From: a virus
Strand: one strand, 5' to 3'
Length of the DNA stretch: 21,059 bases
Virus record (IMG/VR): IMGVR_UViG_3300007734_000454
Location: 1 to 21,059 of that record
The notes under the pieces were generated by a model, which did no database searches, was not told where the DNA came from, and worked only from the letters and a program-made list of their open reading frames with translations. Below, piece by piece: positions 65 through 5,228 of the stretch. The translations under genes were made by a program, and so were the position numbers. Position 1 is the first letter of the stretch, and each line of letters begins with the position of its first letter.

Positions 65-83
65 GAGAGAGAAGTTCTCTCTC
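65..83. repeat. GAGA palindrome, copy A
   Basis: GAGAGAGAAGTTCTCTCTC has 8-bp arms and a 3-nt centre (9-bp arms around one base as DNA). It lies 30 nt beyond the stop of the gene at 114-386 and about 57 nt before the next start. No T tract follows on the minus strand, so it is not a classical terminator. It is identical to copy B. Confidence 0.85.
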
Positions 84-113
84 ACTTGTTGACAGGATGT
101 TTAGTCCTGCTTG

Positions 114-386
114 TTAGAGTGTGCATACCCAGCGTGTGTTGCTGAGTCTGCGGGTGAACAATTTTGTTTTCTTAGTGAACCTCATGTAGCAGTTGAACAT
201 CTTGACTGGCACACACTCATCAGCGCCAATCGACGTAACCCGTATCTCATTGGACTCGATGATGACAAAGCCTTGCGTCTCAAGGATGCGGTGCATTGCA
301 TCCCAGTCATATGTGACCACTGTCTTAGTTGGTATCGGCGTAGGTTCGGCATCCCACGCCGCTACGGGTATATCTCTGAACCTCAT
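114..386 (-). CDS. Hypothetical phage protein, 90 aa
   Basis: I do not recognise this protein. It is a mixed alpha/beta-looking polypeptide with a hydrophobic core segment (VVTYDWDAMHRILETQGFVII, about residues 23-43) and a basic, cysteine-containing C-terminus. There is no signal peptide or membrane segment. The ATG follows the stop of the upstream gene directly (TAAATG), and AAGGAGAAG just before it lies within the end of that gene, so translation is probably coupled. The competing plus-strand frames have no such ribosome site. It belongs to the left-arm operon of small proteins, which in phages often act early on the host, but no specific role can be assigned. Confidence 0.75.
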   Translation of the reverse strand: MRFRDIPVAAWDAEPTPIPTKTVVTYDWDAMHRILETQGFVIIESNEIRVTSIGADECVPVKMFNCYMRFTKKTKLFTRRLSNTRWVCTL

Positions 387-779
387 TTACTTCTCCTTCA
401 CTTCAAAGAACCCAAGCCACTGCGTTCCCTCGACTTGGGGTTGAAACATATTGATGTCGTATGGTGTGTCGTGTGGTACAGGTACTAAGTACAGGTTGTA
501 CGAGTTGCCATACTTCTCCATGATGTGCATCACCTCACGCAAGTCGCGTGTTGGTGTGGTCTGCGCCCAGTCAAACGCACTCGCTGCAAAGAAGTGCAGT
601 TTGTAAGGCTGGTTGTTGATCGGTTCTCCTCGCATTACTGAGTCGCGTTCTGCTTCAGAGGTGAACCACTCAACGTGTGTAACTTCATCTCCATCCTCAT
701 CGTTTGAATACTCAATACCCCACTTGTATGTGGCGTGTGCTAAGTCTTCGCACGGAAATTTATATTGCTCATCTTTCAT
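387..779 (-). CDS. Hypothetical phage protein, 130 aa
   Basis: Not recognised. It is an acidic soluble protein rich in aromatic residues, with an Asp/Glu-rich patch near residues 26-32 (NDEDGDE) and a central HFFAASAFDWAQ segment. No transmembrane helix or catalytic motif is evident. Its ATG overlaps the stop of the upstream 62-aa gene (ATGA), and AAAGGAGAAGCAAA precedes the start. That leader shares AGGAGAAGCA with several neighbours and would pair with the proposed small RNA at 4436-4577. It is followed without a gap by the gene at 114-386. Small acidic proteins in phage early regions sometimes inhibit host enzymes, but the sequence shows no evidence for that here. Confidence 0.8.
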   Translation of the reverse strand: MKDEQYKFPCEDLAHATYKWGIEYSNDEDGDEVTHVEWFTSEAERDSVMRGEPINNQPYKLHFFAASAFDWAQTTPTRDLREVMHIMEKYGNSYNLYLVPVPHDTPYDINMFQPQVEGTQWLGFFEVKEK

Positions 780-964
780 TTTGCTTCTCCTTTAAATGAC
801 AACACGCTACGGACTTGAAACCCAAGACCGAAGCAGCCCACTATCACGAACGCACAGTACAGCGGTGCTGTACCCCAGATGTCGATCTGGATGAACCCGA
901 ATGCGATCAGGTTGTACTGGCATATAGCCAGAAAGATGTGACTCAGTACTTGCATTGCTTTCAT
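776..964 (-). CDS. Small two-helix membrane protein, 62 aa
   Basis: The protein has two hydrophobic stretches, about residues 6-27 and 33-51, joined by a short IDIWGT turn, and a basic C-terminal tail (VRSVLSFKGEAK). It is therefore probably an inner-membrane hairpin protein. Both ends overlap neighbours by ATGA, and the last codons (KGEAK) encode the ribosome binding site of the next gene. The start at 964 is supported by GGGAGAA upstream. A methionine at codon 4 is an alternative. Possible roles include superinfection exclusion or membrane modification. A holin is also conceivable, but the gene is far from the virion cluster and no lysin is nearby. Confidence 0.75.
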   Translation of the reverse strand: MKAMQVLSHIFLAICQYNLIAFGFIQIDIWGTAPLYCAFVIVGCFGLGFQVRSVLSFKGEAK

Positions 965-1209
965 TGCATTTCTCCCAAGTCAATTTCATAGATGGGGTTG
1001 TTGAACTCGACAATGAAGTCGAGGTGCTCGCCAACGATGGACTCGCCCTCTTCAAAGATGAAGAAGATGTCGCCTATGTTGCGTGCTTCCTCCAGTATCT
1101 CGTCACGCATAGAATCGGTTGCACCCTTGGGCATGACCACGCATCGGCGCTCGATAGGTTTGTGGTTATCTTTCCAATAACCTTCAATGCAAATAATCTT
1201 TGCTTTCAT
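961..1209 (-). CDS. Hypothetical phage protein, 82 aa
   Basis: Not recognised. It is a small acidic protein. It starts with a hydrophobic strand (KAKIICIEGYW), has a basic linker (NHKPIERRCVVMPKG) and then an acidic helix (MRDEILEEARN). No membrane segment is seen. The start at 1209 overlaps the stop of the upstream gene (ATGA) and is preceded by AAAGGAGAAGCAAC, one of the clearest copies of the left-arm leader. Its own stop overlaps the next start. The arrangement marks it as a real gene; the function is unknown. Confidence 0.75.
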   Translation of the reverse strand: MKAKIICIEGYWKDNHKPIERRCVVMPKGATDSMRDEILEEARNIGDIFFIFEEGESIVGEHLDFIVEFNNPIYEIDLGEMQ

Positions 1210-1421
1210 GTTGCTTCTCCTTTGTTGTTAATCAAATCAAAGTCTTGGTCTAAAACATTCGCGTCTTGCAGCGCAACCTCAATGTTGAACAAAAAGTCAC
1301 TCAACATTTTTGGCATATCCATACCCCCATACGCCCCACGCAACGACTCGACCAGCCTTAAGGCATAGTCAGCGTCGCCCTTGTATGACAAACTTTTCTC
1401 TGATGCAGTTATTAAAATCAT
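1206..1421 (-). CDS. Hypothetical phage protein, 71 aa
   Basis: Not recognised. It is a soluble, mostly helical small protein (DYALRLVESLRG, KMLSDFLFNIEVALQDANVL). Its last codons (DLINNKGEAT) are encoded by a 24-bp sequence that is repeated upstream of its own start, so the gene is bracketed by direct repeats. The ATG is preceded by AACAACAAAGGAGAAAAGAA, a good ribosome site, and its stop overlaps the next ATG. The bracketing suggests it can be gained or lost as a cassette of about 212 bp. Confidence 0.75.
   Translation of the reverse strand: MILITASEKSLSYKGDADYALRLVESLRGAYGGMDMPKMLSDFLFNIEVALQDANVLDQDFDLINNKGEAT
1215..1238. repeat. 24-bp direct repeat, copy 1
   Basis: Read on the minus strand, this runs from GATTTGATTAAC to AAAGGAGAA. 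It encodes DLINNKGE at the 3' end of the 71-aa gene and also carries the ribosome site of the following gene. It is identical over 24 bp to 1427-1450. Confidence 0.85.
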
Positions 1422-1426
1422 TTCTT

Positions 1427-1450
1427 TTCTCCTTTGTTGTTAATCAAATC
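1427..1450. repeat. 24-bp direct repeat, copy 2
   Basis: It is identical to 1215-1238 but is read in another frame: here it holds the stop codon of the 114-aa gene (Trp-Ile-stop), the 22-nt gap and the ribosome site of the 71-aa gene. The same DNA ending two unrelated genes points to duplication or recombination at gene boundaries. Confidence 0.85.
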
Positions 1451-1788
1451 CAGAAATTGACGAAGTTCTTACCGAACAACTTGAAGGCAGCGTCTCTGCG
1501 GTGATGCAGATCAATCTTCTCGCCGAACCATTCGTAGTGTTCCCCGTTCGCAGTTACTTCCATCGCCCAAATGATTTCGTCTATCGTGGCTCGCCACTTT
1601 GCTTCACCATCGGGGTCTTCCTCGCCGTTGCCTTCATACGGGTAGCCCATCATGTTCTCTTTGAACTTACGCATCATGGGCAACAACAAGATACTCATGG
1701 TGCAGTCCATACTAATCACATCGTTGCGTTCGACTTCAATCTCAACGCGGCGGTTGTCTTCCAAAACATTTTCAATTAACGCTATCAT
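1444..1788 (-). CDS. Hypothetical phage protein, 114 aa
   Basis: Not recognised. It is an acidic soluble protein. It has a charged N-terminal region (ENVLEDNRRVEIEVERNDVISMD), a methionine-rich hydrophobic helix (CTMSILLLPMMRKFKENMMG, about 29-48), an acidic GNGEEDPDGEAKW stretch and a helical C-terminus (TIDEIIWAMEV). The ATG at 1788 has GAGGAGAAGATAA upstream, a strong site that shares TGAGGAGAAG with the complement of the proposed small RNA. A 103-nt gap precedes it, containing a GAGA palindrome and a second hairpin. It may therefore be the first gene of a processed mRNA running through 114-386. Confidence 0.8.
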   Translation of the reverse strand: MIALIENVLEDNRRVEIEVERNDVISMDCTMSILLLPMMRKFKENMMGYPYEGNGEEDPDGEAKWRATIDEIIWAMEVTANGEHYEWFGEKIDLHHRRDAAFKLFGKNFVNFWI

Positions 1789-1819
1789 TTATCTTCTCCT
1801 CATAGGCTAGGGTCGGGAT

Positions 1820-1850
1820 GGTCAGCGGCATAGCCCAAGCTCCGCCGACC
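1820..1850 (-). other. Leader hairpin with 9-bp arms
   Basis: On the minus strand GGTCGGCGG (1850-1842) can pair with CCGCTGACC (1828-1820) over 9 bp around a 13-nt loop. One pair is a G-U wobble that forms only in RNA from the minus strand, so the structure fits the leftward transcript. It lies between GAGA copy B and the ribosome site of the 114-aa gene. No T tract follows, so it is more likely a leader structure than a terminator. Confidence 0.45.
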
Positions 1851-1854
1851 AGTT

Positions 1855-1873
1855 GAGAGAGAAGTTCTCTCTC
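1855..1873. repeat. GAGA palindrome, copy B
   Basis: GAGAGAGAAGTTCTCTCTC is identical to copy A. It lies 18 nt beyond the stop of the 247-aa gene and 66 nt before the start of the 114-aa gene, with no T tract on either side. Confidence 0.85.
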
Positions 1874-1891
1874 GATGAATGTTCCTTTTGT

Positions 1892-2635
1892 TTATAGTAG
1901 TCCGTGCCATGTTGTTGGCACGGGTTCGTTCGGGTTGAGTCGCTCAATCTCAGCCAGTGCTCGCTTGAGTCGGACAACCTTGTCGTGTGTGTCTTGCGTT
2001 GGACTAATCGCATGGTCTTGGTTTGCGTGTAGCAGTTCCTTAGCCGTGCGGTTGAGCAGTCGTTGCTTACGCTTGGCGTGTATGTCATCGGGAACCAGTC
2101 GCTCAAAGGGAATCTTGCGCCTGGCCTTGGCTGTGTATGGCACGTCATCGAACACAGTGTTGACCCTCATCTTGATATGCGTGGGTACAAAGTCTGTCCA
2201 ATGCAAGCCGTGATTGGGTAAGTTCTTTTCCTTGGCATAGGTGGACGGCGTGTAGTCGCCCCGATTCTTGAGCTTGGTGATTCGGTTGTACAACTCAGCC
2301 AGCACCAGCTCGTATGCCCTGAATGCAAGCACCCGCATGTCGTTGTCATCATCCGCCTTGTACTTGAGGGACGCTCGCACACTACGGCGCTCAGCCTGTA
2401 ATGGTTTTATCAAGTCCCCCCATAAAATGTTCTGCTGTGCTTCGTGTATGCGGTGTCGGCGTAGCGTTTCTTTTTGGCTCAGAATGATGTCGCGCATCTC
2501 GTTGACCACAAGTCGGGGCGTACCTTTCTTGAGCAGCCCCGCTAAATGGTTTGCAAGCTCGCGCCGTTTGAGCTTCATCAGCGTGGGGTATTGGATGCGC
2601 TCAGGCGCTGAGTCATCGTGGGTTTCTGGGTTCAT
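1892..2635 (-). CDS. Basic helical hypothetical protein, 247 aa
   Basis: The largest left-arm gene, not recognised. The start at 2635 (MNPETHDD...) is chosen over an upstream ATG at 2782 for two reasons. AGAGGTGCAAC stands at the right spacing, and a near-consensus extended -10 lies at 2664-2672, inside the longer frame. The protein is rich in Lys/Arg and mostly helical. It has a basic stretch at about 20-45 (MKLKRRELANHLAGLLKKG), a QKETLRRHRIHEAQQ helix, a central AFRAYELVLAELYNRITKLKNRG helix and a basic C-terminal region (KRKQRLLNRTAKELL). Nucleic-acid binding is plausible from composition alone. No enzyme motif is visible. Its ribosome site lacks the GGAGAAGC form of its neighbours. Confidence 0.8.
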   Translation of the reverse strand: MNPETHDDSAPERIQYPTLMKLKRRELANHLAGLLKKGTPRLVVNEMRDIILSQKETLRRHRIHEAQQNILWGDLIKPLQAERRSVRASLKYKADDDNDMRVLAFRAYELVLAELYNRITKLKNRGDYTPSTYAKEKNLPNHGLHWTDFVPTHIKMRVNTVFDDVPYTAKARRKIPFERLVPDDIHAKRKQRLLNRTAKELLHANQDHAISPTQDTHDKVVRLKRALAEIERLNPNEPVPTTWHGLL

Positions 2636-2663
2636 GTTGCACCTCTGAGTTGTGGAAGGGTTC

Positions 2664-2672
2664 ATTATATCA
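2664..2672 (-). promoter_or_regulatory. Extended -10 promoter, leftward
   Basis: The minus strand reads TGATATAAT, a perfect TATAAT hexamer with a TG extension, 28 nt upstream of the ATG at 2635. There is no good -35 hexamer, as expected for the extended -10 class. A hairpin terminator lies immediately upstream, so transcription of the 247-aa gene and those beyond it would start afresh here. Confidence 0.6.
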
Positions 2673-2688
2673 GGGGTAGTGATAAAAG

Positions 2689-2712
2689 CACGGAACTGAA
2701 TCCGTGTTTTTT
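2689..2712. terminator. Probable bidirectional terminator
   Basis: CACGGA-6-TCCGTG forms a 6-bp stem. On the plus strand it is followed by TTTTTT; on the minus strand by CTTTTAT. It could stop leftward transcription coming from the genes at 3030-4099 and antisense transcription from the left. The stem is short, so strength is uncertain. Confidence 0.55.
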
Positions 2713-3009
2713 GTAAGTAGTGTGGTATGGCGGACGGGCGTTGAGCCTTATGCTGTAAGGGTTTGTTCAATTTCTGTACCAACCATCTATGTTTTTAGGG
2801 TACTGCACGCCTCAAAGTAAAAGAAACTTTTTCTTTGCGATTTGGCGGCAGAGTGCACGCACATAAACACACCCCTCTATATATAAAGATATATAGAATA
2901 TAGATTAGTAGTACCGAATTTGTCCAAAAGCCCGTGTTCATTGGGCAAAACGCTGTCCGCCTGCATGGATAGTTGTGAAAATCACGGAACCGAAGATTTT
3001 CACCTGTTT
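2713..3009. other. Intergenic region with palindromes
   Basis: About 300 bp with no supported gene. It holds a perfect AT-rich palindrome, CTATATAT-AAAG-ATATATAG (2877-2896), inside a region of strong AT bias (2876-2912). It also holds an inverted repeat with 9-bp arms, GTGAAAATC-11-GATTTTCAC (2975-3003), whose interior contains CGG-AA-CCG. The latter ends 6 nt from GAGA copy C. The AT-rich palindrome could be a binding site or an easily melted element; no iterons or DnaA boxes were seen, so an origin is not claimed. Confidence 0.5.
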
Positions 3010-3026
3010 AGAGAGAAATTCTCTCT
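3010..3026. repeat. GAGA palindrome, copy C
   Basis: AGAGAGAAATTCTCTCT is a 17-bp palindrome centred on a single A. It begins 3 nt after the stop of the gene at 3030-3266. The outermost pair of the 19-bp consensus is lost. Confidence 0.8.
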
Positions 3027-3029
3027 GGG

Positions 3030-3266
3030 TTAGTACGGCAAGGGTTGTTGCACTGGTGCGCCTTGTGCCTGAACCCATGTGTTGCGTGCTTCAGGTGTAG
3101 TGAAGGCGAGGCTTTCACCGCCGATGATGCCTGCGAGATGGATGACATACTCACGCCATCTTTTGCTACTGCCTTTGCTTGGGTAGTAGTCTTGAACCAC
3201 GAGCAAGCCTTTGGGTGTTGTGACTTGGGTGACTGTGAAAAAGGCACGATACTTGTTGTTACGCAT
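3030..3266 (-). CDS. Hypothetical phage protein, 78 aa
   Basis: Not recognised. It is a basic protein with likely beta strands at the N-terminus (YRAFFTVTQVTTPKGLLVVQDYY), then a Lys/Arg/Ser-rich turn (PSKGSSKRWREYVIHL), and a Pro/Gln-rich C-terminus. The ATG at 3266 follows GTAAGGAGAAACATC. A nearby alternative reading frame on the same strand starts at 3247 but lacks a ribosome site. A 66-nt gap with two hairpins separates it from the upstream gene. GAGA copy C follows its stop almost at once. It is probably co-transcribed with 3333-3551. Confidence 0.7.
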   Translation of the reverse strand: MRNNKYRAFFTVTQVTTPKGLLVVQDYYPSKGSSKRWREYVIHLAGIIGGESLAFTTPEARNTWVQAQGAPVQQPLPY

Positions 3267-3280
3267 GATGTTTCTCCTTA

Positions 3281-3323
3281 CGGGCAGGATTGCCCCGCAA
3301 ACCCACGCAGTGCATGAGTTTGC
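3281..3323 (-). other. Two hairpins in a leader
   Basis: CGGGCA-4-TGCCC(C)G (3281-3297) forms a hairpin just upstream of the ribosome site of the 78-aa gene. GCAAAC (3297-3302) pairs with GTTTGC (3318-3323). The former could affect access of ribosomes to AAGGAG. No T tract follows either. Confidence 0.35.
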
Positions 3324-3332
3324 AGAGTTTCC

Positions 3333-3551
3333 TTATTCGTTGTCTAAGTTAAGTTCTACGTAGTCAGGCGCATCTTCTCGTTCGAGCACAACCACATCGT
3401 TTCGCTTTGCTGCCAGTCCGATGTAGTTTTTTACCCCGTCAACAAGCACAGCAAATTCTTTGTCGTTCATGTGCCCATCAAGGTTGTTTAGTGTGGCAAC
3501 AAGCGTTAAGTCACCATCGTCACGCATAAAGCCTATTGATACAGTTTTCAT
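3333..3551 (-). CDS. Acidic hypothetical protein, 72 aa
   Basis: Not recognised. It is a small, strongly acidic protein: MKTVSIGFMRDDGDLTLVATLNN at the start looks like a beta hairpin, the middle contains KEFAVLVDGVKNYIGLAAKRN, and the end is EREDAPDYVELNLDNE. No membrane segment or cysteines. The ATG at 3551 has CGGAG eight bases upstream, a weaker site than those of its neighbours. It lies only about 30 nt beyond a strong leftward terminator, leaving no room for a separate promoter. Its expression therefore probably depends on read-through. Confidence 0.7.
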   Translation of the reverse strand: MKTVSIGFMRDDGDLTLVATLNNLDGHMNDKEFAVLVDGVKNYIGLAAKRNDVVVLEREDAPDYVELNLDNE

Positions 3552-3582
3552 GGATAAATCTCCGTTGGGTTTTGGTTGGACA

Positions 3583-3611
3583 GGGAAAGAAACAGCGGCA
3601 AGAAGCCGCTG
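3583..3611 (-). terminator. Intrinsic terminator, leftward
   Basis: On the minus strand CAGCGGC-TTCTT-GCCGCTG forms a 7-bp GC-rich stem and is followed at once by TTTCTTT. It lies 30 nt beyond the stop of the 152-aa gene, after GAGA copy D. The plus strand has no T tract. Because a gene begins 32 nt further on, it probably works as an attenuator between the first and second genes of the left arm. Confidence 0.7.
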
Positions 3612-3619
3612 TCAGAGAC

Positions 3620-3638
3620 GAGAGAGAAATTCTCTCTG
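3620..3638. repeat. GAGA palindrome, copy D
   Basis: GAGAGAGAAATTCTCTCTG has 8 paired positions each side and a mismatch at the outermost position. It lies 2 nt beyond the stop of the 152-aa gene and 8 nt before the arms of the terminator. Confidence 0.85.
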
Positions 3639-3640
3639 GA

Positions 3641-4099
3641 TTACTCAAAGGCGATAGAGTCACGCAGTTCAGCAATCAGGGCATCAAACTCTGCCTTGTT
3701 CATGCCAGACGCAATGACCTCGTTCAAGACAGCGTTAAACACTCTGCGTGGTGCAATGACTTTGACTTGACGACCGCTTGAATCAGGCAGTGTTTTCTTA
3801 GCCTTGATTTTCTTAATGTGATAGGCAAAGTCAGAGTAGGCGCGGTCAATGGCCTTGATGTGCTCACGCTTTGCAGTCTTGCCTTTGCCAGTGGCGATGA
3901 CATCCTCAGCGTTCTTGATGCCTTGCCCGATAAGATGGTTCAGCATCCAGCGAGCTTTCAAGTCCTTTTGTTGCTCAGGCGTAGCCTTTGCGTATGCGTC
4001 AGCAAGCGGCTTTGCAGACTCTTGCAACTGCTTGCCTACTTTACCGACAGACTTTGCGAACTCGTCGAATGACATGGTCGTGTTTGCTTTCAGTGACAT
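3641..4099 (-). CDS. Basic helical hypothetical protein, 152 aa
   Basis: Not recognised. The ATG at 4099 (MSLKANTTMSF...) is preferred to an in-frame start at 4162: AAGGAGAAGCACC precedes it, and the longer frame would run through GAGA copy E. The protein is lysine/alanine-rich and helical throughout (FAKSVGKVGKQLQESAKPLADAYAKA; DFAYHIKKIKAKK). Its acidic C-terminal helix is KAEFDALIAELRDSIAFE. There are no cysteines or membrane segments. Composition would suit a nucleoid or DNA-associated protein, but no domain is recognised. It is the first gene of the left arm, behind a candidate extended -10 promoter, so it is probably abundant early in transcription. Confidence 0.8.
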   Translation of the reverse strand: MSLKANTTMSFDEFAKSVGKVGKQLQESAKPLADAYAKATPEQQKDLKARWMLNHLIGQGIKNAEDVIATGKGKTAKREHIKAIDRAYSDFAYHIKKIKAKKTLPDSSGRQVKVIAPRRVFNAVLNEVIASGMNKAEFDALIAELRDSIAFE

Positions 4100-4116
4100 G
4101 GTGCTTCTCCTTGTGT

Positions 4117-4135
4117 GAGAGAGACTTTCTCTCTC
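4117..4135. repeat. GAGA palindrome, copy E
   Basis: GAGAGAGACTTTCTCTCTC has 8-bp arms around CTT. Unlike copies A-D it lies in the 5' leader of a gene, 17 nt upstream of the ATG at 4099 and close to its ribosome site. The centre differs from the other copies while the arms are kept. Confidence 0.85.
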
Positions 4136-4173
4136 GGGGTTATGCGGCTGAGACTTCCCCAACCGCTAAGGCT

Positions 4174-4182
4174 ATTTTACCA
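4174..4182 (-). promoter_or_regulatory. Candidate extended -10 promoter, leftward
   Basis: The minus strand reads TGGTAAAAT, an extended -10 resembling the one at 2664-2672, with no clear -35. It lies 75 nt upstream of the first left-arm gene, so transcripts would begin near 4167 and carry GAGA copy E in the leader. Confidence 0.4.
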
Positions 4183-4435
4183 CGAGGGGTAAGCAGATGG
4201 TTCGTATAGCCCTCTCATAGCGTGAATATCCGAGAACTTTAGACCCCACCCTAGGGGCATCCCCCATATATGTGTGAACGGGTGGCACTTAGCTTGAACA
4301 CTATTCCCCACCAATTCTCAGCACTTCTGTAATACTTAATACTCCAGACTACCCCCCTACAAAGATAATCACCCCCACCATAAAAATTTCTAAAAAATTT
4401 GGAAGAACCCTATGTCAAACGCTAGACATACAGCC
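4183..4435. other. Non-coding strand-switch region, left half
   Basis: About 250 bp without a supported gene between the two arms. It is marked by short C runs, an AAATTT-5-AAATTT repeat (4385-4400) and a perfect inverted repeat TATGTC-8-GACATA (4411-4430). The latter contains a leftward TTGACA (4418-4413), but the hexamer 17 nt on (TTTTAG) is a poor -10. I see no tRNA, origin iterons or attachment site. Confidence 0.5.
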
Positions 4436-4577
4436 ATAAAAAAATCCCCCGGCATTGCTGACGGGGGATTAAACAGTTGGAGCACAACTGAGGAGAAGCA
4501 TCTGAACAACAGTGGAGAGAAGATGGCCAAAGGCCATATTCAACAACAGGGCCAAGGCCCACGGTTGCGCAACTGCT
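4436..4577 (-). ncRNA. Candidate phage small RNA, about 142 nt
   Basis: A minus-strand unit with its own promoter (4585-4613) and terminator (4437-4470) but no convincing ORF. In order, the RNA contains GTTGCGCAAC, a GGGC-CTTG-GCCC hairpin (4549-4560), an ATGGCC-TTT-GGCCAT hairpin (4523-4537), a pyrimidine-rich linker, a CAGTTG-5-CAACTG hairpin (4474-4490) and the terminator hairpin. The linker reads ATCTTCTCTCC, then CTGTTGTT, then GATGCTTCTCCTCA. The last segment is complementary to GGAGAAGCATC before the gene at 1-7, to AGGAGAAGCA before 387-779, 961-1209 and 3641-4099, and to TGAGGAGAAG before 1444-1788. The leaders of the right-arm genes (for example AAGGAGT) match much less. The inference is a trans-acting RNA that blocks ribosome binding on left-arm mRNAs. 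The alternative is a plus-strand minigene using the same bases. Confidence 0.6.
4437..4470 (-). terminator. Strong intrinsic terminator, leftward
   Basis: On the minus strand AATCCCCCG-10-CGGGGGATT forms a 9-bp stem that runs into a tract of seven T. The plus strand reads TTAAAC after the stem, so the element works leftward. Since no leftward protein gene lies to its right, it most simply ends the small RNA. Confidence 0.8.
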
Positions 4578-4579
4578 GA
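4523..4579 (+). CDS. Possible 18-aa minigene (alternative to the RNA)
   Basis: A plus-strand ATG five bases after GTGGAG opens a short frame, MAKGHIQQQGQGPRLRNC. A second ribosome-site-like GAGGAGAAGC lies 31 nt upstream of the ATG. It is listed because the ribosome site is canonical. However, its ATG lies inside a perfect hairpin and no plus-strand promoter is evident upstream. I regard the minus-strand RNA reading as more likely. Confidence 0.15.
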   Translation: MAKGHIQQQGQGPRLRNC

Positions 4580-4592
4580 CAATTAGTATACA
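4565..4592 (+). promoter_or_regulatory. Candidate right-arm promoter
   Basis: TTGCGC and TATACA are separated by 16 nt, and transcription would begin near 4599, about 30 nt before the small terminase gene. The -35 is imperfect. The -10 shares GTATAC with the leftward promoter at 4585-4613, so both could not be occupied at once. Confidence 0.4.
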
Positions 4593-4613
4593 CTCCGCGC
4601 ATCGCAGGTACAA
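4585..4613 (-). promoter_or_regulatory. Small-RNA promoter, leftward sigma70 type
   Basis: The minus strand reads TTGTAC (4613-4608), exactly 17 nt, then TATACT (4590-4585). Transcription would start near 4577, giving an RNA that ends at the T tract around 4437. This is the best -35/-10 pair found in the window. Confidence 0.6.
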
Positions 4614-4628
4614 GGGACTTATGCGCCG

Positions 4629-5228
4629 ATGTTAGACCACCTTATTGATTTTGAACCGGAAGTGAGTGACCACTCTGGTAAACCTACGCCTCTTGAGAAA
4701 GAGCATCCGGCGGATGTGATCGACGCTAAAGTAAACACGGTCGAGTGGCTCAAGGGTCTGGGTGCGGCTGACACACAGACTGTGGTCAACCAAGCGGAAG
4801 TCCAAGCGGCACGCGCATCTTTTACAAATCTCATTTCGTCCGCGCCAAGCGAAATTACCCACGAACATCTTACCCAGATCAAAACGCCAGCCGCTGTTCA
4901 ACATTTGGTCGGTATGCTCACAGCCTACGACTGGGAGTTTGTGCATCAGGCCCGTGAACTCCGTGGCTACACCGTGGCCAAGCTCCTTGAAGAATGCGAG
5001 AACCCCAACGCCAACATCCGCCTGAAGGCGCTGGGCTTGCTGGGCAAGGTAACCGAAGTTGGGCTGTTCACCGACAAGATTGAAATCAAGAAGACCGACC
5101 TGACCGACGAAGAGATCGACCGCAAGCTCAAAGAGAAGCTGGCCAAGTTCATGGGTGTGACAGACGCTGAGCCAATAGAAGACATAGAAGTAAGCACTCC
5201 CTCACCGGCCACAACCGATGAATCTTGA
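4629..5228 (+). CDS. Terminase small subunit (probable), 199 aa
   Basis: It would recognise phage DNA and hand it to the large terminase for packaging. The middle and C-terminal helices (YDWEFVHQARELRGYTVAKLLEE, about 100-122; NIRLKALGLLGKVTEVGLFTDKIEIKK, 129-155) have the pattern found in small terminases of podovirus-like phages. The sequence then ends in an acidic helix (LTDEEIDRKLKEKLAKFM, 158-175) and a disordered tail. The gene sits directly before the large terminase, overlapping it by 11 nt. The start has only a weak AGGGA 11 nt upstream; no better in-frame start exists because a TAG lies at 4584. The assignment rests on position and helix pattern, not on a clear helix-turn-helix. Confidence 0.7.
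   Translation: MLDHLIDFEPEVSDHSGKPTPLEKEHPADVIDAKVNTVEWLKGLGAADTQTVVNQAEVQAARASFTNLISSAPSEITHEHLTQIKTPAAVQHLVGMLTAYDWEFVHQARELRGYTVAKLLEECENPNANIRLKALGLLGKVTEVGLFTDKIEIKKTDLTDEEIDRKLKEKLAKFMGVTDAEPIEDIEVSTPSPATTDES

Follow-up and report, generated by a model that had tools for sequence, protein, structure and literature searches.

The leftward gene block of this phage carries dispersed palindromes that are probably double-stranded DNA operators for a dimer of the protein of gene 1, the first gene of this early block, and that would shut the leftward operon down in the manner of stoperators. The gene 1 protein is on the best reading a dimeric DNA-binding regulator of a new type. The positions of the sites, the concerted change of their arms, and the covariation of the arms with both the N-terminal domain and individual residues in a predicted helix are seen in the sequences themselves. 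Because the arms change in step with an adjacent, fast-evolving small protein, the palindromes are most likely its binding sites.

Palindromes of the leftward block

The window, by which the whole analyzed phage fragment of 21,059 nt is meant, contains five palindromes, all within the leftward (minus-strand) gene block. Copy 1 (4117–4135; GAGAGAGA-CTT-TCTCTCTC) lies in the gene 1 leader and ends 17 nt before the ATG at 4099, and copy 2 (3620–3638; GAGAGAGAA-A-TTCTCTCTG) lies 2 nt past the stop of this gene (3641–4099, minus strand, 152 aa), which encodes the candidate palindrome-binding regulator. Copy 3 (3009–3027) is found 2 nt past the stop of the minus-strand gene 3266–3030, copy 4 (1855–1873; GAGAGAGAA-G-TTCTCTCTC) 18 nt past that of 2632–1892, and copy 5 (65–83; again GAGAGAGAA-G-TTCTCTCTC) 30 nt past that of 386–114. 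"Past the stop" holds in the leftward sense because all genes of the block are on the minus strand. The five positions given in an earlier note made from the sequence alone are confirmed, as are its four gaps of 2–30 nt after stop codons and its single leader copy; only the third copy is longer than described there, extending to 3009–3027 around a perfect core (AGAGAGAA-A-TTCTCTCT) at 3010–3026. The note had seen no copy in the right arm, and indeed a scan permitting up to three mismatches gave eight overlapping matches, all at the five places and none elsewhere in the window, at a chance level from shuffles of 0.05 (sd 0.26, maximum 2). The five palindromes are real and not due to chance. In four of the five copies a single central base is the point of symmetry (AANTT centre). 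Similarity among the five stretches ends at about 19–23 nt. That they are not ordinary terminators, as also proposed, is borne out: in the sequence no T tract comes after any of the five, and none was picked up by a terminator scan for GC-rich hairpins with a T tract. A search of the window for RNA families gave no match.

A separate element, a terminator-like hairpin (3592–3612, minus strand; ACAGCGGC-TTCTT-GCCGCTGT) with a T-rich tail in the minus-strand sense, is located directly downstream of copy 2, and a hairpin at the matching position is present in many relatives. There follow, all leftward and with no assigned function, genes for proteins of 72 aa (3333–3551), 78 aa (3030–3266; then copy 3) and 246 aa (1892–2632; then copy 4), the last being conserved, with 48 found in relatives. 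The divergent intergenic region (4136–4628) between gene 1 and the rightward packaging genes presumably holds the early leftward promoter; no match to the sigma-70 consensus was found in it.

Palindrome families in related phages

The relatives comprise 78 uncultivated IMG/VR phages with distinct first-gene proteins; the search for more gene 1 relatives made use of the terS-position gene. Nearly all of the 78 have a palindrome of their own, in 2–7 copies and in the same leftward block. The arms, inverted repeats of 6–12 nt, fall into approximately 33 distinct sequences, for example GAGAGAGA, GTGGGACA, GCAGACA, GGGGTAG, and TTCCTAC. Related records that were checked whole and that have a repeated palindrome family contain one family each, in the leftward block, and in whole records of 50–67 kb the sites, 3–7 in number, are found only there. 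Copies stand directly past the stops of orthologous genes or otherwise inside or close to the start of gene 1: a palindrome is present at the end of gene 1 in 73 of the 78 phages, in its leader in 29 and within it in 28, and at the end of the 246-aa gene family in 36 of 44 relatives. The association with gene ends, which the earlier note had proposed to check in relatives, is there: 184 of 301 sites lie within −6 to +20 nt of an ORF end, as compared with 10.9% for random positions. It should be noted, however, that 64 of the 301 sites belong to none of the three position classes, which counts against the operator reading.

Within one phage the arms are alike and the loops vary; between phages the whole set of arms is exchanged together. 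For example, when the first palindrome after the stop of gene 1 and the first after the stop of the distant 246-aa gene are located independently, they share arms of at least 6 nt in 33 of 37 phages, versus 3.6% in the same comparison across phages whose gene 1 is unrelated (none of 2000 permutations attains the observed value). Spacer length differs by 1 bp inside a few phages (2 or 3 in the TTCCTAC family; 4 in one GAGA copy), which is unusual for a rigid dimer and likewise counts against operators. Among related gene 1 variants there are exceptions, L051 retaining the GAGA site and L060 being without any palindrome family. Some records, e.g., L214 and L060, are mosaic, indicating recombination in the block.

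Covariation of the arms with gene 1

The sequence of the arms follows the N-terminal domain of the gene 1 protein, but neither its C-terminal domain nor six other left-arm gene families. Among the 78 phages the Mantel correlation of the arms with the N-terminus is 0.54 (p = 0.0005, the floor of 2000 permutations), and it is 0.49 with the neighboring terS-position protein controlled for, although the selection of arm families by shared k-mers biases this test; the two-site comparison (33/37) is free of such bias. For the C-terminus given the N-terminus the correlation is 0.03 (p = 0.09; 78 phages), and partial r is −0.08 to 0.22 for the six other families as compared with 0.35–0.55 for the gene 1 N-terminus. 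The conserved 246-aa protein was also weighed as a candidate for the binding protein. It was dismissed: with gene 1 accounted for, it shows no tracking of the arms, and G003 has other arms with a 74% identical copy, whereas L006 has the same arms with one of 37%.

At the level of residues, substitutions in the predicted helix of one gene 1 subfamily (ARK, ATK, ARM) correspond to changes of single bases in the arms: RND.ARKSW goes with GTGGGACA (four phages), RHHAATKSW with GTGAGACA (two phages), RNSPARMSW with GTGGAACA (two phages), and RNNAARMSW with GTGGCACA (one phage). In a second subfamily RKAL.R is found with GGGACA, KT.VR with GGGTCA, and RKAVTN with GGGGAA. The protein of L148 is otherwise like that of the GGGACA group, yet has KTAVR together with GGGGTCA.

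The gene 1 protein consists of an alpha-helical N-terminal domain, a flexible linker at approximately 100–113, and a C-terminal two-helix unit (AlphaFold2, mean pLDDT 74). It matches no Pfam or PHROG family and no known DNA-binding family, a helix-turn-helix (HTH) is not recognizable, and homologues are absent from 50,697 GenBank phage records. Two gene 1 models found no match among solved folds; this, like the absence of a match to a known DNA-binding family, speaks against the operator reading. Structure searches with the models returned weak resemblances only (MarR-like, KH-like, helical bundles), of which no use was made. The best match in a viral structure library is an uncharacterized protein of 147 aa from an uncultured phage.

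Mode of action

In the mechanism that we favor, the N-terminal domain of the gene 1 protein would read one half-site, which in the window is GAGAGAGA, and the two arms, about 3 bp apart, would each be occupied by one of two copies of the protein. The palindrome beside or inside gene 1 would make the protein a regulator of its own transcription. The palindromes that immediately follow stop codons, and frequently precede a terminator-like hairpin, would serve as roadblocks or termination aids by which the leftward operon is closed down one gene after another, in the way of mycobacteriophage stoperators. We infer the binding of the sites by the gene 1 protein, its dimeric state, and an effect of repression or roadblock, as opposed to activation or antitermination.

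The covariation would be identical if the sites were operators at which the gene 1 protein acts as activator, or anchoring or partition sites, and some of them, about 60–70 nt or less from the next start codon, would suit an upstream activator. This is nevertheless unlikely, since several sites are only about 20–26 nt from the next ATG, which leaves no room for an intervening promoter, and since only a single promoter-like sequence is found in the block, below shuffled expectation.

The earlier note had left open whether the palindromes are operators for a phage regulator or RNA hairpins that process or stabilize a transcript. The first of these gains support from the arms being common inside a phage, differing between phages and covarying with the gene 1 N-terminal domain, and from the pattern of conservation; the second is not supported, although the RNA could fold. 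Of the 27 GCAGACA sites, 21 retain AACT flanking the core on each side, even though in 19 the base separating AACT from the core is unpaired. Judged from the sites, what is conserved is the half-site rather than the pairing of bases, and this favors DNA operators over RNA hairpins. Imperfect copies number only four, all of them A.C and not G.U in the leftward transcript, and compensatory changes between copies inside one phage were not found. RNA hairpins placed at early mRNA 3′ ends, where they stabilize or process the transcript or assist termination, with the DNA symmetry as by-product, would fit the position after stop codons, often with a second hairpin following, the predicted RNA folds of −7.7 to −17 kcal/mol, the loops of 3–4 nt, and the spacer length, which is not fixed. 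They are improbable because pairing alone would permit each copy to drift, whereas arms are constant per phage while loops vary and the copies change jointly between phages; because imperfect copies are A.C and the outer AACT is conserved past a mismatched base; because many copies lie before or inside gene 1; because there is no T tract, with a separate terminator next to the site; and because covariation with a protein is not expected.

This last objection does not apply to RNA operators, i.e., to hairpins in the nascent transcript bound by the gene 1 protein as antiterminator or translational regulator (as by lambda N at boxB), which would also explain the position just upstream of terminator-like hairpins. 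We consider them just as improbable: it is the arms rather than the loop that carry specificity, the outer half-site is kept across an unpaired base, and in many lineages the symmetry extends to a centre of 0–1 nt, as is usual for DNA sites bound by dimers. Palindromes that are selfish or recombinogenic and propagate by gene conversion, in the way of T4-type regulatory cassettes or REP elements, and that have no dedicated binding protein would account for the same arms at many gene ends and for recombination in the block as in the mosaic records L214 and L060, but are very improbable, as no flanking sequence travels with the copies, loops differ, and arms match gene 1 residues in independent lineages.

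Life cycle and distribution

Neither a tyrosine integrase (15 records) nor a serine recombinase (14 other records) was found, many of the records being fragments. In phages that are without a detectable integrase and not known to lysogenize, a repressor would be of doubtful benefit, which is a point against the operator reading. The GenBank phages with portal relatives, Pelagibacter HTVC027P, phage DSL-LC04, and 023Pt_psg01, have no gene 1 and no terS-position protein, nor comparable repeated palindromes in the stretches read. In a host search terL matched two MAG contigs, both without the palindrome system.

In temperate phages, fast and concerted change of regulator and operator is the signature of immunity groups. 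Its appearance in phages without detectable integrase raises the question why a repressor should diversify in phages that are not known to lysogenize. We suggest only tentatively that gene 1 represents a new superfamily of small phage DNA-binding proteins with a fast-evolving specificity domain, and that close lytic phages may hold mutually incompatible regulator-operator sets replaced in concert at every gene end. If true, there would be immunity-group-like competition in non-lysogenizing phages, with a readable residue-to-base recognition code. A function is predicted for a phage gene family that has no name and is absent from the databases searched, and the approximately 33 putative operator sequences with their 78 matching proteins form a natural set of sufficient size for working out how a new domain recognizes DNA.

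Comparison with known systems

The stoperators of Cluster A mycobacteriophages (L5, Bxb1) are dispersed in short intergenic gaps of early genes, and their motif varies by phage lineage in correlation with repressor divergence; some are operators near a promoter, and others are thought to stop elongation (PMC6550527, PMC9283540). They are 13-bp asymmetric sites, 20–30 per genome, oriented with transcription and read by a monomer with an HTH and a second domain (PMC6550527, PMC9283540). Common to both systems are dispersed sites in short gaps between early genes and a lineage-specific motif that tracks the regulator, here its N-terminal domain. By contrast, the sites described here are palindromic with arms of 6–12 nt, and they number 3–7 per phage and are confined to about 8 kb rather than spread genome-wide. 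No HTH is recognizable in gene 1 by Pfam, PHROG or fold matches, and an integrase was not found in the records searched, many of them fragments.

The conserved inverted repeats (CIRs) of phiC31, a temperate Streptomyces siphovirus, are palindromic, nearly all intergenic, dispersed in the genome, and bound by one phage repressor. They resemble the palindromic gene-end sites observed here also in length; we know of no comparable swapping of arm sequences among CIRs.

The SAS/ESAS repeats of Cluster K mycobacteriophages are short, phage-specific and tied to gene boundaries, where they sit at start codons and sites of translation initiation; the ESAS are inverted repeats whose spacer varies and whose consensus depends on the lineage, and no binding protein is known (PMC3203893). 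Here, in contrast, the sites follow stops, only the gene 1 leader copy being just before a start, and there is a protein that covaries with them.

T4-type mobile regulatory cassettes, which contain promoters and terminator stem-loops, are likewise regulatory elements that recur between the genes of a lytic phage. They differ from the palindromes of the leftward block, whose arms covary with a protein and with which no promoter travels.

Palindromes at the gene ends of the left block

The five palindromes that the earlier note had described are present, at 4117–4135, 3620–3638, 3009–3027, 1855–1873 and 65–83 of the window, and no similar sequence occurs elsewhere in it (chance mean of 0.05 matches). 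Their siting was also as described: every gene in the left block is read leftward and, in this direction, four palindromes lie 2, 2, 18 and 30 nt past stop codons and the fifth precedes by 17 nt the start of the first leftward gene, gene 1 (4099–3641, minus strand, 152 aa). The window is a linear 21-kb IMG/VR virus record, the rightward half of which encodes the terminase large subunit, portal, capsid, a GroES-like protein and tail proteins. Among GenBank phages its portal has only distant relatives (27–45% identity), the nearest being in Pelagibacter phage HTVC027P, phage 023Pt_psg01 and phage DSL-LC04. The 199-aa product of 4629–5228, in the terS position across the divergent region from gene 1, is well conserved in IMG/VR; it matched no PHROG family and no homologue among GenBank phages.

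Searching IMG/VR with the portal and terS-position proteins yielded about 150 loci (whole records were retrieved for 16). Gene 1 was extractable at 117 loci, giving 81 distinct proteins and a final set of 78 with assigned palindrome arms; gene calls were mechanical and many records are fragments. A first survey of perfect palindromes showed that relatives have repeated palindromes in the same block with different arms, and about 33 different cores occur among the 78 phages. In whole records the repeated family is confined to the leftward block, about 0.5–8 kb from the terminase gene; G011, a whole record with an unrelated left arm, has no such family. Copies are located at orthologous gene ends, and the link to gene ends holds beyond the window: 184 of 301 sites fall between −6 and +20 nt relative to the end of an ORF on the transcribed strand, as against 10.9% of random positions, the other sites being in the gene 1 leader (26), within gene 1 (27) or elsewhere (64). 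A site is found at the gene 1 stop in 73 of the 78 phages, usually 2–3 nt past it, and after the 246-aa gene (1892–2632, minus strand) in 36 of 44. A terminator-like hairpin with a tail resembling TTTCTTTTCCTGTCNAAC recurs past the gene-1-end palindrome across lineages, its stem varying in sequence.

Replacement of the arms as a set

Within one phage the spacers differ between copies and the arms are constant. Because arm families were originally defined by shared k-mers, so that some positive counts were picked by the criterion they illustrate, the comparison was repeated in unbiased form without k-mers, the first perfect palindromes past the stops of gene 1 and of the 246-aa gene being found independently. 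They share at least 6 nt in 33 of 37 phages, as against 3.6% between phages with unrelated gene 1, and 33 was reached in none of 2000 permutations. The phages that depart from the general pattern (L051, L060, L077 and L214) look like recent recombinants. In the mosaic record L214/L050/G015 the gene 1 sites are GTGGCACA and the 246-aa gene is followed by a site with the L213 arm type, GAGATAGAA. A recombinant gene 1 is common to L051, L060 and L077, which are apparent intermediates of an exchange: the GAGA palindrome (the arm type of the window) is retained past the gene 1 stop in L051 and lost in the other two, and two other palindrome families persist in L060 as single leftover copies.

Covariation of the arms with the gene 1 protein

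The gene 1 protein is predicted to have a helical domain at its N-terminus, joined by a disordered linker to a small helical unit at its C-terminus (window model, pLDDT 74); the model of its G007 relative (pLDDT 82) shows a beta hairpin and places the helix that covaries with the arms at residues 85–94. Fold and family searches gave no match, and no homologue was found among 50,697 GenBank phages.

With the caveat that the phages do not count as independent data points, those whose gene 1 N-terminal parts are alike also tend to have similar arms (Mantel r = 0.54, p = 0.0005, the lowest value that 2000 permutations allow), and the correlation is still 0.49 when controlled for the protein across the divergent region. 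Gene 1 was divided at a constant distance from its end, and once the N-terminal part is accounted for the last 40 residues contribute no further correlation (0.03, p = 0.09). Between phages with near-identical terS-position proteins mean arm similarity is 0.48 when the gene 1 N-termini are unrelated versus 0.85 when they are similar. Partial correlations are 0.35–0.55 for gene 1 and background-like (−0.08 to 0.22) for six other left-arm families; the comparison covered left-block genes and the terS-position protein, and a gene from outside the block might in principle show covariation too. C-terminal units have been swapped between N-terminal types, which would follow if DNA is read by the N-terminal domain; the window and L156, for example, have this unit in common and not the arms.

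In a first subfamily of nine phages (LG-x-TPC-x...STR-x-x-R-x-x-x-A-x-x-SW-x-RN), arms and residues correspond exactly: GTGGGACA with GTPCP and RND.ARK, GTGAGACA with ETPCP and RHHAATK, GTGGAACA with GTPCS and RNSPARM, and GTGGCACA with GTPCA and RNNAARM. Arg drops out when a G of the arm is replaced by A, and Lys when the following G is replaced by A or C, as major-groove contacts to guanine would predict. In a second subfamily GGGACA goes with RKAL.R, GGGTCA with KT.VR and GGGGAA with RKAVTN. L148 is informative in that its protein is of the RKAL.R/GGGACA kind, yet it has KTAVR and GGGGTCA arms. Since counts are small and lineages related, this possible recognition code is a strong lead rather than proof.

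Proposed mechanism and known systems

Sites at the gene 1 start would allow autoregulation by its protein, and those that lie past a stop codon and ahead of a terminator-like hairpin would permit a roadblock or enhanced termination, as we infer from mycobacteriophage stoperators (PMC6550527, PMC9283540). The palindromes may instead serve activation, or antitermination acting on RNA. The transcribed palindromes are able to fold, but three features of the sequences favour DNA over RNA. The arms are conserved at the sequence level, beyond pairing alone; in GCAGACA phages 21 of 27 sites retain an outer AACT on each flank, although in 19 of 27 an unpaired base separates it from the core; and the only four single-mismatch copies give A.C in the transcript, none G.U. 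Some sites in G016 and L084 join a TGAGACA half to a TGGGACA half, as independent half-sites would give.

Dispersed operators read by a single phage repressor are already known from L5-type stoperators and the phiC31 inverted repeats. What appears to be new is the gene 1 protein family, the siting of the palindromes at stop codons within a short early block, how many interchangeable specificities close relatives have among them, the apparent match of residues to bases, and the lack of a detectable integrase (searches found no tyrosine integrase in 15 records and no serine recombinase in 14 others, many records being fragments).

Two further observations concern the left arm. Between two leftward genes of the window is a gap of about 370 nt (2640–3009), where a second hairpin, GTGAAAATC-loop-GATTTTCAC in the minus sense, directly follows the palindrome at 3009–3027; the gap had no match in Rfam, is conserved in part among relatives and may represent a structured RNA or a regulatory region. 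In L052, whose left arm is of another kind, GCCCCGC-nn-GCGGGGC palindromes recur 2003–2710 nt to the left of the terL start; they may be a further version of this system.
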